Source: Candidatus Saccharimonadales bacterium (lineage in GTDB: Bacteria; Patescibacteriota; Saccharimonadia; Saccharimonadales; UBA10212). From it: a DNA stretch of 34,732 bases. Below, piece by piece: positions 29,929 through 34,732 of the stretch (position 1 is the first letter of the stretch; each line of letters opens with the position of its first letter). Under the pieces are notes generated by a model. It was not told the origin of the DNA. It did not search any database and saw only the letters and a program-made list of their open reading frames with translations. Location of the stretch: positions 1 through 34,732 of the forward strand of contig JANWHE010000003.1 in NCBI GenBank assembly GCA_025450575.1, in the 5' to 3' direction. Made by a program: the position numbers and the translations under genes.

Positions 29929-30004
29929 TGGTGGCTCCTCCCAGACTCGAACTGGGGACACAAGGCTCTTCAGGCCTCTGCTCTACCAACTGAGCTAAAG
30001 AGCC
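29929..30004 (-). tRNA. tRNA-Phe (anticodon GAA)
   Basis: Acceptor GGCTCTT/AGGAGCC with G-U and mismatch-tolerant last pairs, D-arm GCTCAGTTGGTAGAGC, anticodon stem GAGGC/GCCTT around CTGAAGA (GAA), T-arm CCCAG-TTCGAGT-CTGGG, encoded CCA. Confidence 0.95.
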
Positions 30005-30014
30005 ACGCTAAGTA

Positions 30015-30044
30015 ATTCTATTACAGATTAGCGCCTCTAGGCAA
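30015..30044 (-). promoter_or_regulatory. Promoter for tRNA-Phe
   Basis: TTGCCT (30039-30044) and TAGAAT (30015-30020) on the minus strand are 18 bases apart, ten bases upstream of the tRNA. Confidence 0.5.
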
Positions 30045-30126
30045 TGAGGGGTTGGAGTAAGTTATTTTACTGCGCCATTTTGTTTCTTCTGTAAATATCA
30101 ATATGTAATAAGCAGGAGGGTTAGCT

Positions 30127-31020
30127 ATGCGCAGATTTATCTATGGTTTGGCGGCACTTGGTTCAAGTTTATTAATGGCGATCGGCTTACCTTTAGCGGC
30201 TAAGGCCGCGGCGACCGTTACCGTGACGCCTCAGTCGATGGATGGCTGGGCTTTCGTGGACGACACTAACGATACCACCGTTACGGCGACCGGACACATG
30301 ATCAAGGGTCCCGGGACTCCGCCTTTGGGAATCGGCAGCGCCGAGTTGGAGACAACCTCTCCTATCGACGGCCAAGCCTTGATGAAAAACGCTTACGCCG
30401 GCCGGAAGTTCTCTGACCTGACAACCCTTACCTACTCAACCTATGTCAAGGCCGGTAACGGCACTATCGCGCCGTCCGTGCAGTTCAGCGTAGATAAGGA
30501 TGTCACCGATAGCATAACTTCTTGGCAGGGCCGCGTCGTGTTTGAGCCGTATCTGAACGGTACGGTCACTGACGGCCAGTGGCAGTCCTGGGCGGCAAAC
30601 AATGGCAACTGGTGGCTGACAAAGCCCGGGCTGTTCAACGATACGTGTCCTCAATCATCACCGTGCACCTTAAACGACCTAATATCCGCGTTCCCGAATA
30701 TAGGGGTTAACGGCGGTTCTAACGCCCAAATCCTATTTAAAGCCGGTTCTGGCTGGACGACCCAGTTCGTCGGCGACGTAGACGCTTTAACTGTCGCTTT
30801 CTCTGGCAATCCTACCACCTACGACTTCGAGCCTTACCAAATAGCCAGCACCACGGACCAATGTAAGAACAATGGCTATAAGGATGTCCGCGACGGCGAC
30901 GGCCAGGAGTTCAAGAACCAGGGCCAATGCGTCAGCTGGGTCCAGCACAATGTCAACGGCAACGGCCAAGGCAACACCCAGCATCAGAGCGCGGCTACCA
31001 ACAACAACCCTTCGTTCTAA
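30127..31020 (+). CDS. Secreted protein with C-terminal FKNQGQCVSWV motif
   Basis: The 297-residue protein has a classic signal peptide (MRRFIYGLAALGSSLLMAIG, cleavage likely after LAAKAAA). The mature region of about 200 residues is rich in Thr, Gly, Asn and aromatic residues and looks like a beta-sandwich (STYVKAGNGTIAPSVQFSVD). A C-terminal segment reads DQCKNNGYKDVRDGDGQEFK then NQGQCVSWV. This DQCKxxGW...FKNQGxCVSxV pattern ends many secreted proteins of Saccharibacteria and actinobacteria; I know no established function for it. Two Cys in it could pair, as could the pair in DTCPQSSPCTL. ATG 30127 has AGGAGGG at good distance. The AT-richer block begins shortly after. Confidence 0.75.
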   Translation: MRRFIYGLAALGSSLLMAIGLPLAAKAAATVTVTPQSMDGWAFVDDTNDTTVTATGHMIKGPGTPPLGIGSAELETTSPIDGQALMKNAYAGRKFSDLTTLTYSTYVKAGNGTIAPSVQFSVDKDVTDSITSWQGRVVFEPYLNGTVTDGQWQSWAANNGNWWLTKPGLFNDTCPQSSPCTLNDLISAFPNIGVNGGSNAQILFKAGSGWTTQFVGDVDALTVAFSGNPTTYDFEPYQIASTTDQCKNNGYKDVRDGDGQEFKNQGQCVSWVQHNVNGNGQGNTQHQSAATNNNPSF

Positions 31021-31094
31021 ATAGTCCTCAATAGTCCGCGTTTTTGTTAGATGAGTTACAGAGCGTAACCGGCCGGTGTAATAAGCTGGACGTC

Positions 31095-31193
31095 ATGGGT
31101 AAAGAGGTCAAAAAGTTCCAGGATATCAAACCGATTATAAAGCCGCGCCCAAAGCGAGTTCGGCGGCGGCTAATCGGCGCTCACCTGGATTAA
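31095..31193 (+). CDS. Possible 32-residue basic peptide
   Basis: ATG 31095 opens MGKEVKKFQDIKPIIKPRPK followed by RVRRRLIGAHLD and TAA. The peptide is highly basic and Pro-containing. TTACAG and TGTAAT 16 bases apart lie upstream, with the -10 about a dozen bases before the ATG. No family is recognised. It fills most of the 314-base gap between the secreted protein and the MFS gene, together with the tRNA remnant. Chance occurrence cannot be ruled out. Confidence 0.35.
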   Translation: MGKEVKKFQDIKPIIKPRPKRVRRRLIGAHLD

Positions 31194-31198
31194 AAAAA

Positions 31199-31272
31199 TA
31201 CAGGTAGGGAGACTCTAGCTCCCGACCTGTAGCTTGATAAGGGGACGCCCTAAACAACTGAGTTACACCTGC
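31199..31272 (-). pseudogene. Decayed tRNA gene (perhaps from tRNA-Asp)
   Basis: On the minus strand an acceptor GCAGGTG/TACCTGT (two G-U pairs) and a D-arm region TAACTCAGTTGTTTAGGGCG are present. The variable region AGGTC and T-stem GGGAG/CTCCC are intact. The anticodon stem is destroyed: TCCCC faces GCTAC. The loop TTATCAA would give an ATC anticodon, not used in bacteria. The T-loop is CTAGAGT instead of TTCGAGT, and no CCA is encoded, unlike all intact tRNAs here. The D-arm most resembles tRNA-Asp. It sits at the boundary to the AT-rich accessory segment. Confidence 0.65.
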
Positions 31273-31322
31273 TTAGTGATAGCTGGGTTATTTACTATTA
31301 TTCACCTGCTGATAACTTATGT

Positions 31323-31328
31323 TATATT
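31323..31328 (+). promoter_or_regulatory. -10 box for the MFS transporter, leaderless type
   Basis: TATATT lies six bases before the GTG start at 31335. No ribosome-binding site is possible in between. Confidence 0.5.
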
Positions 31329-31334
31329 CAGGGC

Positions 31335-32738
31335 GTGAAGCCACAACTCCGACTAATTTTAATAATTAGCATTCTTGCTTCTCTCATTGCGTTTTTAGAC
31401 TCAACAGTCGTAAACGTGGCATTACCCGCTATCGTACGTCAGCTTGGGGGCGGGTTAATAGTTCAGCAGTGGATAGTTGACGCTTACTTACTAACTCTTG
31501 GTTCGCTTATTCTTCTGGCCGGTTCTTTGTCAGACATGTTTGGCCGTAAGCGCATTTTAACCATAGGCTTAGTAGGTTTTATGCTTGCTTCCGTAGCCTG
31601 TGGCCTAGCGCCAACCTCTACCTTTTTGATTATTGCTCGTGCATTTCAGGGTTTTGCTGGCGCGCTTCTTGTGCCAAGTTCACTGGCGCTTATTGTGTCA
31701 AATTTTTCTGGGCGAGAACAAGGCAAAGCCATCGGTACTTGGACGGCCTGGACTGGCATTGCCTATGTTATCGGGCCCTTGCTGGGCGGTTTTTTGGTGA
31801 CATATACAACGTGGCGCTGGATATTTTTAATCAACATCTTTCCAATTTTACTAACGCTATATCTCTTGAGCCGCTTGAAACTTAATGAAAAGCCAGACCC
31901 TGATGCCAGGGTAGATTATTTTGGCGCCGTGCTATGTGCTATTGGTCTAGGCGGCATTGTTTATGCATTTACCGAGGGGCCTAAATATGGCTGGTCAAAT
32001 ACTTTAGTACTGTTCTCCCTAATGGTTGGACTAGCTGGGCTAGTTACCTTTATCTTATACGAACTCCGAATCAAAAAGCCTATGTTGCCAATGTCTCTAT
32101 TTAAGGTTCGCAATTTTAGCGTTGGGAATATAGCTACCTTAGCAATTTATGGCTCACTAGCTATTGCCACTTTTATTCTGGCGATCTTTCTGCAACAAAC
32201 AGCTCATTTTACAGCCCTTCAAGCCGGCTTGGCCCTTATACCCGTCGCGGTCGTCATGTTTTCGTTCTCTACTCTTTTTGGCAGTTTGTCCGGCAAGTAT
32301 GGGCCCCGGCTTTTTATGACCCTAGGGCCGATTATCGCTAGTATTGGCTATCTGTTGTTCTTCCGTGTCACGCCGCCGATTAGTTACTTAACCCAGATAC
32401 TGCCTGGGATTTTGGTGTTTGGATTTGGACTATCAATGACAGTCGCACCACTTACGGAAGCCGTATTAGGAAGTGTTGACCAAGCGCACTCAGGAATCGC
32501 TTCGGCAGTTAATAATGCGGCATCCCGTGTCGCCGGTTTGCTGTCAGTGGCCGCTATCGGAATAGTGATTGGGACAGCGCCTTTTAGCGGAGCTCAGGAG
32601 CACGGTGTTAATTCGTTGCATAGAAACGCCGTGTTTATGGCGGTACTACTGTCTATCGGTGGCATTATTTCGCTAATTGGAATTCGGAATCCAAAAACTA
32701 AAAACGCCAACGAAGCCCAAGCTAAAGCCCCGGCTTAA
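31335..32738 (+). CDS. MFS multidrug transporter, DHA2 (14-helix) family
   Basis: The 467-residue membrane protein has the DHA2 signature in its first helix (FLDSTVVNVALPAIVRQL), then WIVDAYLLTLGSLILLAGSL, the loop 2-3 motif GSLSDMFGRKRIL (motif A), and motif C-like GPLLGGFLVTYTTWRWIFLI. Helix count is about 14. Such proton-driven pumps (EmrB, QacA) export drugs, dyes and other toxic compounds. No EmrA partner or regulator is adjacent. The start is GTG. The coding sequence is clearly AT-richer, with many TTA, AAT and TTT codons, than the housekeeping genes to the left, suggesting acquisition. It opens the block carrying the 119-bp elements. Confidence 0.93.
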   Translation: MKPQLRLILIISILASLIAFLDSTVVNVALPAIVRQLGGGLIVQQWIVDAYLLTLGSLILLAGSLSDMFGRKRILTIGLVGFMLASVACGLAPTSTFLIIARAFQGFAGALLVPSSLALIVSNFSGREQGKAIGTWTAWTGIAYVIGPLLGGFLVTYTTWRWIFLINIFPILLTLYLLSRLKLNEKPDPDARVDYFGAVLCAIGLGGIVYAFTEGPKYGWSNTLVLFSLMVGLAGLVTFILYELRIKKPMLPMSLFKVRNFSVGNIATLAIYGSLAIATFILAIFLQQTAHFTALQAGLALIPVAVVMFSFSTLFGSLSGKYGPRLFMTLGPIIASIGYLLFFRVTPPISYLTQILPGILVFGFGLSMTVAPLTEAVLGSVDQAHSGIASAVNNAASRVAGLLSVAAIGIVIGTAPFSGAQEHGVNSLHRNAVFMAVLLSIGGIISLIGIRNPKTKNANEAQAKAPA

Positions 32739-32741
32739 ACT

Positions 32742-32766
32742 AATAAAAAAACCCGGAATTACTGGG
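32742..32766 (-). terminator. Weak terminator-like stem facing left
   Basis: CCCGG and CTGGG form a 5-bp stem with one G-U pair around AATTA. The A-run before it means a T-run after it on the minus strand, so it would end leftward transcription. No minus-strand gene is visible here. Confidence 0.25.
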
Positions 32767-32784
32767 ATAGAATAATTAAACTTG

Positions 32785-32886
32785 GTGCAGCAACTACGAA
32801 AATCTTTACACCAAATCAGGGATGAAATGGCTCGCTGGAGAAAGATTTTAGAAGTGCCGTATCGAGAATATTTACTAAGTGGGTAA
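32785..32886 (+). CDS. 33-residue peptide, copy 1
   Basis: Frame GTG to TAA. The peptide runs from MQQLRKSLHQIRDEMARWRK into ILEVPYREYLLSG, a basic, probably helical sequence. Compared with copy 2, only residues 4, 10, 15 and 33 differ, whereas about a dozen codons have silent third-base changes. That is what selection on protein sequence leaves behind. An in-frame stop lies shortly upstream, so it is not the visible end of a longer local gene, although it might descend from one. No clear ribosome-binding site is seen. Family unknown. Confidence 0.5.
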   Translation: MQQLRKSLHQIRDEMARWRKILEVPYREYLLSG

Positions 32887-32903
32887 GAGCTGGGAGTTAC
32901 ATT
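32785..32903 (+). repeat. 119-bp cassette-like element, copy 1
   Basis: Starts GTGCAGCAACTACGAAAATC and ends GAGCTGGGAGTTACATT. It aligns base for base, without gaps, with copy 2 at 33434-33552. Most of it is a 33-codon frame followed by a conserved 17-base tail. It separates the MFS gene from the following membrane protein. Confidence 0.85.
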
Positions 32904-32957
32904 TTCCTTAAATGTTATATTCTGTTAAATATAAACAATCTACAAGACAAAAGTAAA

Positions 32958-33398
32958 GTGCGGGAGTGGCTTCATAGATATATACCCGCGGAAGTGCTTG
33001 GCACGGTCCTCGCTCTCATAGCAGCATGGCTTGTTTATAACCACACTCATTCATATATTGCTGCGGCGGCCGCTGGCTGGGTTGGTGAGGGCGTGGGCTT
33101 TTATGGTTATTTTGTTACAACCGAACTAATACATAACCATAGAAAATACAACCAATACAGATTTTTAAAACGCATCCCTTTGGCTGTAGCCGCGGCTAGT
33201 ACAAATCTCTTGGTTGAGTTCCTGCCAGCTGAGATAATCGATAATTTCATTTTTCGCCCATATCTAATGTACTTAATACCTCAATATATACACCCATATG
33301 CCGTTGGGTTTTTGGTCGCTAAGTTTACTGCAGACATAATCTTTTATGTGGTTGCTGTAATGGGCTATGAAACCAGGAAGCGCCTATTGCATCGCTAA
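32958..33398 (+). CDS. Four-helix membrane protein, unknown family
   Basis: The 146-residue protein has four hydrophobic segments (about 12-27, 30-53, 70-88 and 108-136). They are separated by short charged loops such as IHNHRKYNQYRFLKRIP, and the end is YETRKRLLHR. The start is GTG at 32958. There is no clear ribosome-binding site and no -10 box directly at the start; TATATT lies about 35 bases upstream. I recognise no family. It lies between copies 1 and 2 of the 119-bp element and shares the AT-rich composition of the block. Confidence 0.6.
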   Translation: MREWLHRYIPAEVLGTVLALIAAWLVYNHTHSYIAAAAAGWVGEGVGFYGYFVTTELIHNHRKYNQYRFLKRIPLAVAAASTNLLVEFLPAEIIDNFIFRPYLMYLIPQYIHPYAVGFLVAKFTADIIFYVVAVMGYETRKRLLHR

Positions 33399-33433
33399 AA
33401 AGTGTAAATCGCCCATTTGGTATAACAGATGTG

Positions 33434-33535
33434 GTGCAGCAAGTACGAAAATCTTTACATGTTATTAGGGATGAGATAGCTCGCTGGAGGAAAATATTGG
33501 AAGTGCCGTATCGGGAATACTTGCTGAGCAAATGA
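33434..33535 (+). CDS. 33-residue peptide, copy 2
   Basis: Frame GTG to TGA. The peptide runs from MQQVRKSLHVIRDEIARWRK into ILEVPYREYLLSK. Differences from copy 1 are Leu/Val, Gln/Val, Met/Ile and Gly/Lys; the RKILEVPYREYLLS core is identical. A second GTG directly precedes the chosen one. The frame stays open upstream to about 33372, so a longer N-terminus cannot be excluded. No family is recognised. Confidence 0.5.
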   Translation: MQQVRKSLHVIRDEIARWRKILEVPYREYLLSK

Positions 33536-33552
33536 GAGCAGGGAGTTACACT
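33434..33552 (+). repeat. 119-bp cassette-like element, copy 2
   Basis: Starts GTGCAGCAAGTACGAAAATC and ends GAGCAGGGAGTTACACT. It is the same length as copy 1 and lies between the membrane protein and the OB-fold-like protein. The promoter of the next gene begins eight bases after it. Confidence 0.85.
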
Positions 33553-33559
33553 GTCACGC

Positions 33560-33565
33560 TATAAT
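33560..33565 (+). promoter_or_regulatory. -10 box for the anchored OB-like protein
   Basis: TATAAT lies nine bases before ATG 33575, just after element copy 2. No Shine-Dalgarno site is present. Confidence 0.45.
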
Positions 33566-33574
33566 ATAGCTACT

Positions 33575-33982
33575 ATGAATAAGTTATTGAAGAATAAGCC
33601 AGTTGTTATATCAGTCATCGTTTTCATGTTGCTACTAGGAGGCCTAATTGTCGCCTGGCAAAGCTCACTATATACCCTAAATCGCCTTAGTATTAGAGAG
33701 GTTACTCCAACGCAGCTTGCTGCTGCTATGAGACAAGATGAGTTCTGGTCAACTTATAGATTTAATACTCTAGTTTTTGATGGCAAAGTAAAATCTAAAA
33801 ATATGATCAATGGGACCACCTCATTTGCCTTTGAGACCTCTGATACTTACGGTGTGAGTTGTGAGTTTCAGAACCAAAATACAGACCTTAAGGTTGGCAA
33901 AAGCTACAAGCTTATAGTAGAGACATACCAGGCTGAGCGTCAACCCAGAGGTGTTTTATTACACAACTGCATCAATTTATAA
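33575..33982 (+). CDS. Membrane-anchored protein with OB-fold-like domain
   Basis: The 135-residue protein has an N-terminal helix (KPVVISVIVFMLLLGGLIVAW), a helical linker (LSIREVTPTQLAAAMRQDEF) and about 80 residues of alternating strands. The stretch FDGKVKSKNMINGTTSFAFE, then DTYGVSCEFQNQ and GKSYKLIVETYQAE, then LHNCINL, resembles the small OB-fold proteins often called tRNA_anti-like. The two Cys in the domain could bridge outside the membrane. Function unknown. It lies between element copy 2 and the truncated copy 3. Confidence 0.6.
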   Translation: MNKLLKNKPVVISVIVFMLLLGGLIVAWQSSLYTLNRLSIREVTPTQLAAAMRQDEFWSTYRFNTLVFDGKVKSKNMINGTTSFAFETSDTYGVSCEFQNQNTDLKVGKSYKLIVETYQAERQPRGVLLHNCINL

Positions 33983-33995
33983 TTATCACCTATTC

Positions 33996-34025
33996 GTGCA
34001 GCAAGTGAGAGCAGGGGCTTACACC
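33996..34025 (+). repeat. Cassette-like element, copy 3 (internally deleted)
   Basis: GTGCAGCAAG, as in copy 2, is joined directly to TGAGAGCAGGGGCTTACACC, the tail of the element. All but the first ten bases of the 33-codon frame, up to its stop, has gone, leaving 30 bases. It lies between the convergent ends of the OB-like gene and the peptidase. Confidence 0.7.
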
Positions 34026-34675
34026 TAGTTCACTTTATAAGGCTGGCTTCCAATAAAGTTCTGTTCTGCACCGTTTACAACCAATGCTGCGTCGTCCTGA
34101 AGCCCATAAACAGGAAAGCCTAGGCCTTTTGCGACTTCTTCCAGTACTTCAGGTCGGTTATTAGGAAAATGGGGTGAGTTTAGATGGGGTTTAATGGCTA
34201 AATCAACAAACCTTAAATATTCCTTAATCCCGTAATCGTCGTGCTCTCCATATATTTTTAGATAGGCTTCGGCAGAGACCCTCTTGCCCATCACCATTGA
34301 GCCTGCGCTGCTACCAATATAAACTTTCGTTTCCAATAATCTGGGTAATAGGTTTGAAAATCCCGACTTATCAAAGACGTGCATTAAGTAGTCAGTATTG
34401 CCACCAACCACAAAAATGACGTCCTTCTGCATTATTCGTTTCTCCACCTCTTCTAATGGAAGAGCCAGTAAGTTAACGATGTCTAGCTCAGCGGAAAAGT
34501 GTTTCGATACATCATTGAGGTTATCTAGAACCCACCGCTTATCGCCACCTTCAACAGCATATGCTTCATTAATAACTGCAATAGATATTTTGTCTTGTGG
34601 CTTGCCAACTAGCTCCACACAGGCCTTGACGGTATTGGGGGTATGGAAGCCCTCAGAGCAAAGTACAAGTTTCAT
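34025..34675 (-). CDS. Peptidase E-like serine hydrolase (family S51)
   Basis: The 216-residue protein has the S51 nucleophile elbow YIGSSAGSMVMG with Ser123. It follows the Gly-rich strand IFVVGGNTDYLMHVF, and LQDDAALVVNGAEQNFIG near the end matches the GLxDxxA part of the fold. Peptidase E cleaves Asp-X dipeptides; other members act on cyanophycin or cyclic dipeptides. NSPHFPNNRPEVLEE contains the His expected near the active site. Length is slightly below the 229 residues of the best known enzyme. TAGTAT six bases before ATG 34675 suggests a leaderless message. It is AT-rich like its neighbours. Confidence 0.88.
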   Translation of the reverse strand: MKLVLCSEGFHTPNTVKACVELVGKPQDKISIAVINEAYAVEGGDKRWVLDNLNDVSKHFSAELDIVNLLALPLEEVEKRIMQKDVIFVVGGNTDYLMHVFDKSGFSNLLPRLLETKVYIGSSAGSMVMGKRVSAEAYLKIYGEHDDYGIKEYLRFVDLAIKPHLNSPHFPNNRPEVLEEVAKGLGFPVYGLQDDAALVVNGAEQNFIGSQPYKVN

Positions 34676-34681
34676 AAGTAC

Positions 34682-34687
34682 ATACTA
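34682..34687 (-). promoter_or_regulatory. -10 box for the peptidase E-like gene, leaderless type
   Basis: TAGTAT on the minus strand ends six bases before the ATG at 34675. Confidence 0.45.
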
Positions 34688-34725
34688 ACAAAAGTTGATA
34701 ATAAAAACGGCATTTTACAGAGGTC

Positions 34726-34732
34726 GTGGTGC
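34726..34732 (+). repeat. Possible start of a fourth cassette-like element
   Basis: The last seven bases, GTGGTGC, equal the beginning of copy 2 including its upstream GTG. The window ends here, so this cannot be confirmed from the sequence given. Confidence 0.2.

Follow-up and report, generated by a model that had tools for sequence, protein, structure and literature searches.

A tRNA-Gly-anchored array of gene cassettes in Saccharibacteria, probably assembled by a self-splitting serine integrase

At the right-hand end of the window (the whole stretch of 34,732 nucleotides of Candidatus Saccharimonadales DNA analyzed here), successive genes of unrelated function are separated by copies of a repeated element, raising the question of what the element is and which kind of recombination could have placed it between them. 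The features of the locus are as follows.

29929 to 30004, minus strand: tRNA-Phe(GAA), marking the distal edge of the site
30005 to 34732, no strand: probable island, between tRNA-Phe and tRNA-Gly (the latter past the contig end)
31335 to 32738, plus strand: gene for an MFS transporter (PF07690), in the interval from tRNA-Phe to copy 1
about 32782 to 32902, plus strand: element of copy 1, from TTGGTGC (putative attachment core) to GTTACAT
32785 to 32886, plus strand: tail copy 1, 33 codons (VQQLRKSLHQIRDEMARWRKILEVPYREYLLSG) and a stop codon
32958 to 33398, plus strand: gene for a 146-aa putative membrane protein with no family match; cassette, against the usual direction
about 33431 to 33551, plus strand: element of copy 2, right end GTTACAC
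33434 to 33535, plus strand: tail copy 2, 33 codons (VQQVRKSLHVIRDEIARWRKILEVPYREYLLSK) and a stop codon
33575 to 33982, plus strand: gene for a 135-aa membrane-anchored protein with no confident family; cassette, against the usual direction
33996 to 34024, plus strand: tail copy 3, internally deleted, left end GTGCAGCAAG fused to right end TGAGAGCAGGGGCTTACAC
34025 to 34675, minus strand: peptidase E-like hydrolase gene (PF03575), the cassette adjoining tRNA-Gly; its stop codon abuts copy 3
34727 to 34732, minus strand: last six bases of the contig, TGGTGC; probably the GCACCA 3′ end of tRNA-Gly(GCC) and the primary attachment site

The two full copies (32783–32906 and 33432–33555) align without gaps over 124 nt at 81% identity, confirming the repeats that the original prediction had placed at 32785 and 33434, and the intervening genes and their mixed orientation also match its description. 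The copy claimed at 33996 is present but not full: the sequence at 33996–34024 (GTGCAGCAAGTGAGAGCAGGGGCTTACAC) has undergone an internal deletion, joined at a short AGCAA repeat, and shares 88% identity with copy 2 over its final 25 nt. The window's genome (87% complete) yielded no other full copy; a weak, diverged copy occupies positions 2127–2203 of locus L135 in the same genome (contig C17, G000:C17), where no tRNA was called within the fetched 14 kb.

Further copies, expected by the original prediction, are abundant in relatives. A profile (E 0.001) located the repeat in 92 of 393 genomes of the order (Saccharibacteria), and a peptide search with a loose limit in 63 of 149, often as two to eight copies in one orientation, about 1 kb apart, around unrelated genes; within single loci of the first set fetched, the copies share their orientation. 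As also anticipated, the cassette genes differ between genomes. The record titles of the DNA-pattern matches are mostly Candidatus Saccharibacteria. One record titled as a Chlamydiae bacterium (CAJCIR010000070.1, L102) also carries the element, but it appears to equal the saccharibacterial locus L185 (G161:C70), and its title is probably wrong.

Each copy of the repeat encodes 33 codons that are under protein-level selection. Across 28 gapless copies the entropies of the three codon positions are 0.62, 0.56 and 1.07, the third being the most variable, and position 17 is drawn from the synonymous arginine set CGN/AGR in all 28. For the tail, pN/pS is 0.27 (228 pairs of 48 intact copies), whereas the two alternative frames give control values of 1.03 and 1.41 and the reverse strand gives 1.21; an early stop interrupts six of 54 copies. 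Copies 1 and 2 of the window each contain this frame, which the earlier description lacked, and differ from one another mainly at synonymous sites (pS 0.60, pN 0.06). Conservation at the DNA level begins at TTGGTGC, practically at the first codon, and stops at GGGAGTTACAC, about 18 nt past the stop codon; the flanks are not conserved, except that a hairpin, probably a terminator, often precedes the left end. At that end, TGGTGC corresponds in reverse complement to the 3′ end of a tRNA. The idea of a longer host gene that terminates in the element was discarded, as in the genomes searched the tail matches lie in short frames. The frame could instead be an independent small gene (for a peptide, an antitoxin or a regulator) in each cassette, its adjacency to the core being secondary: it has a start codon at the left edge and a stop codon of its own, and the selection is seen in copies without a nearby recombinase gene, those of the window included, but no conserved ribosome site or promoter precedes the start.

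Two variants of the element were observed alongside the main form. The copy at L066 (1697–1819) is interrupted by a pair of short palindromes, TTCGCTGTCCAGCGAA and TCCGCTATACAGCGGA. A second tail class, WCSIVDxLQTSA...LVxxFxLSxxLL, has the TGGTGC core in common with the first and uses a different reading frame; its sites include L060 7738, L061 9845, L063 5066, L140 5160, L183 704 and others, and no recombinase for this class was found.

The element was also considered as an attC site that is recombined as a folded single strand by IntI, which would make the locus an integron-type array. The elements do run in one direction, the gene at the TTACAC end is convergent with the element in 36 of 49 cases, often from within a few dozen bases, so that a recombination site stands at the 3′ end of the gene as in integrons, and the cargo is both unrelated and variable (asparaginase/peptidase E, NUDIX, GDSL lipase, methyltransferase, SDR, BrnT/CopG, PIN, RibD and others). 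However, neither strand of the element folds better than shuffled sequence (z near 0, 28 copies), no Rfam RNA family was detected at the elements of four array loci, no genome among 20 gave an IntI match over the TIGR02249 cut-off, and most array genomes encode a single Xer-like tyrosine recombinase, located away from the array. The element, moreover, is coding. The absent fold and the lack of IntI over the cut-off in the 20 genomes refute a canonical attC and IntI system, and we regard any integron-type array of this kind as exceedingly unlikely. The claim of a recombination-driven array other than a canonical integron holds in its general form, but the element is not attC-like.

A different anchor emerged from the other array sites, which have only TTGGTGCAGCA in common with those of the window's family. 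Its reverse complement, TGCTGCACCAA, is like a tRNA 3′ end, and a tRNA scan revealed that the arrays adjoin tRNA-Gly(GCC). In the 33 loci with a tRNA-Gly, 47 of 47 elements lie downstream of it and on the opposite strand (the set includes L191, where the nearest tRNA is tRNA-Gly(tcc), possibly by coincidence). In the window's genome, contig C21 terminates exactly at the CCA of tRNA-Gly(GCC) (...CCGCACCA), and the right end of the window, read backwards, begins GCACCACGACC, which suggests that the two contigs probably meet there. Since C21 ends exactly at this tRNA, the TGGTGC at 34727–34732, which had been proposed as a possible further copy beginning at 34726, is probably the 3′ end of that tRNA. 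In the same-family genomes G003 and G008, tRNA-Phe follows one base after tRNA-Gly, representing the empty site; as the window has its tRNA-Phe at 29929–30004, the island probably fills 30005–34732, and the MFS transporter gene probably belongs to it too. The geometry in the 33 loci and the empty Gly-Phe site agree with an element that integrates at a tRNA 3′ end and leaves the tRNA gene intact. Inside the probable island, positions 31208–31272 (minus strand) hold a degenerate tRNA-Gly-like stretch, without an ARAGORN call and 74% identical to the tRNA-Gly of a relative over the initial 65 bases of that gene, which is perhaps a decayed tRNA copy delivered by an insert.

Comparison of cassettes between genomes provides sequence evidence of movement. 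The peptidase E-like cassette of the window has homologs in L062, L185 and L144, and identity to the L062 cassette is 84.7% for L185 and 84.2% for L144. L144, from another family, carries the cassette inside its array; there, the shared sequence starts at GCACCA, with unrelated DNA before it, and the similarity continues through the gene into the tail. Homologous cassettes in different families are 84–86% identical, again from GCACCA onward, and at about 80% the second cassette in L063 corresponds to the first one in L194 and L199. Exchange between repeats by homologous recombination, as might follow DNA uptake, could spread copies and shuffle cassettes without any site-specific enzyme, the repeat being long enough for this, and L061 contains two identical copies with different flanks. 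The start of the L144 similarity at a 6-bp GCACCA preceded by unrelated DNA, the fixed placement behind tRNA-Gly and the location of recombinase genes at the tRNA all argue against this explanation, to which we assign very little probability.

Of 20 array genomes examined, 13 contain recombinases that match PF00239 over the cut-off. The recombinase that the original prediction proposed to look for is thus present in relatives, where a large serine recombinase (LSR) gene lies beside tRNA-Gly and outside the window, but none was detected over the PF00239 cut-off in the window's own genome (87% complete). Four of four LSRs tested contain PF00239, with PF07508 over the cut-off in two and PF13408 in one, and on these domain matches the enzyme is judged to belong to the LSR class (Resolvase, Recombinase, zinc ribbon). 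Seven loci (L074, L141, L142, L147, L152, L153 and L189) have an LSR gene that runs antisense into tRNA-Gly and terminates in tRNA-derived codons (for example, KKDLPKLEKSLM followed by VRVKRL and the stop codon), and all seven genes have the identical phase at TGGTGC. When the gene is joined in silico across TGGTGC to the far-end element, an in-frame tail results for six of the seven (L074, L142, L147, L152, L153 and L189), which would place the attachment site inside the integrase frame; in L141 an element is at the expected place, yet it was not ranked by the junction scan. None of the genomes searched contained an intact LSR that still has its tail. The last codons of LSR genes (KKDTEVS and similar; for example, L074 3318–3380) form a hairpin that is followed by a T run on the tRNA strand, and the end of the LSR gene seems to double as the terminator of tRNA-Gly.

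Among 32 LSR reading frames, 21 terminate antisense in or beside a tRNA gene. For LSRs at other tRNAs, four of 80 candidate tails are profile-related to the Gly type, with E-values of 2.6e-7 for tRNA-Arg, 0.0045 for Met, and 0.0072 and 0.03 for Glu, the last ones being weak and the control set of this comparison, which included true Gly tails, offering no clean null. LSRs in L155–L174 commonly terminate antisense in tRNAs for Met, Glu, Gln, Pro, Leu, Lys, Asn and Arg; as LSR ends fall antisense at so many kinds of tRNA, self-splitting may be general in this LSR group. The agreement of the 33-codon frame with the phase of the LSR gene, together with the related candidate tails at other tRNAs, speaks against the independent small gene introduced above, which we consider improbable. 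Four LSRs of the Gly clade have no tRNA end (L060, L149, L183 and L192); they are followed by out-of-frame second-class sites in three cases and an unclassified site in one, with an in-frame tail in none. This is compatible with excision by restored enzymes, the numbers being small.

Taken as a whole, the locus is, with good confidence, most readily understood as an array of cassettes anchored at tRNA-Gly and belonging to a self-splitting serine integrase, the repeat being half of attP plus the severed LSR tail, because of the coding selection, the tRNA-Gly geometry, the in-silico continuity of the frame, the GCACCA boundaries and the empty sites. Each repeat would then unite one half of the LSR attachment site with the final 33 codons of the recombinase gene. 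In the predicted circular form, the LSR frame would cross the attP core TGGTGC into the tail. Integration of TGGTGC with the GCACCA of tRNA-Gly(GCC), through a crossover that we place within the 6-bp core, would cut the LSR gene at the core. The body of the gene would remain beside the tRNA, ending in a few antisense-tRNA codons, and the tail would be left at the far end of the insert, so that 33 residues are traded for a few tRNA-derived ones; the truncated enzyme may differ from the full-length one in activity or direction. Small cassettes without an LSR are probably mobilized in trans, and repeated insertion beside the same tRNA, of LSR-bearing elements and of cassettes, would build the array. 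The window would represent such an array without an LSR, in which two tails are intact, a third is deleted and the contig probably stops at the end of tRNA-Gly. Several observations count against this model: the genomes searched contain no intact LSR with a tail, the window's genome (87% complete) has no LSR match, the L141 element was not ranked, the shared core is only 6 bp, the model gives no reason for the conserved right edge, GTTACAC, and the second tail class has the core but no recombinase found for it. A further step, which we put forward only tentatively, is integron-like gene capture, in which a cassette inserted between tRNA-Gly and the LSR would give the LSR a new C-terminus. If so, the enzyme would be encoded in part by the cassettes that it moves, and this would account for the selection on the tails. 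The small set of four Gly-clade LSRs with no tRNA end and no in-frame tail is in line with this idea.

Several known systems resemble parts of this arrangement. Integrons and integron-less attC clusters likewise have single-gene cassettes in which most genes are followed at the 3′ end by a site, all sites pointing one way, with the primary site at an edge, and their arrays occur with and without a recombinase gene; here, in contrast, there is no IntI and no folding attC, the sites are coding and a tRNA 3′ end serves as the primary site. The LSR has the N-terminal Resolvase domain of phage large serine integrases, and that of Listeria A118, at about 26% identity over 62%, is among its nearest phage proteins. 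In phage large serine integrases, attP lies outside the coding frame and the protein is unchanged by integration. A phage origin was discarded, the scans having returned no viral contig with the pattern or an LSR relative. In archaeal SSV-type suicidal integrases, as here, the attachment site is within the integrase gene, integration into a tRNA gene splits that gene, and the protein carries the translated site (PMC8371274); such self-disrupting integrases have been described as exclusively archaeal (PMC8371274). SSV-type enzymes are archaeal tyrosine recombinases from which the split detaches the catalytic C-terminal part, whereas the present enzyme is a bacterial serine recombinase whose loss would be confined to a short tail at the C-terminus, and whole cassette arrays are marked by orphan tails. 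The closest island types found are additive flexible genomic islands and tycheposons, in which cargo also accumulates at one tRNA gene, the additive islands being marked by tRNA 3′-end repeats (PMC10872708); the tycheposons described differ in using a tyrosine recombinase (xerD), in place of an LSR with repeats that carry its tail (PMC10872708). The open-access literature searched, outside which most subscription journals lie, yielded no description of integrons in Saccharibacteria, nor of serine recombinases that target tRNA genes there. The array combines known kinds, and an earlier description may exist beyond these open-access publications.

If the proposed reading is true, the array would constitute a bacterial, serine-recombinase case of self-splitting with many natural copies. 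Loss of the tail upon integration would act as a built-in switch, which could make a serine integrase directional, and the system would offer a mechanism by which Saccharibacteria, with their tiny genomes, acquire and shed genes at a single, fixed tRNA.
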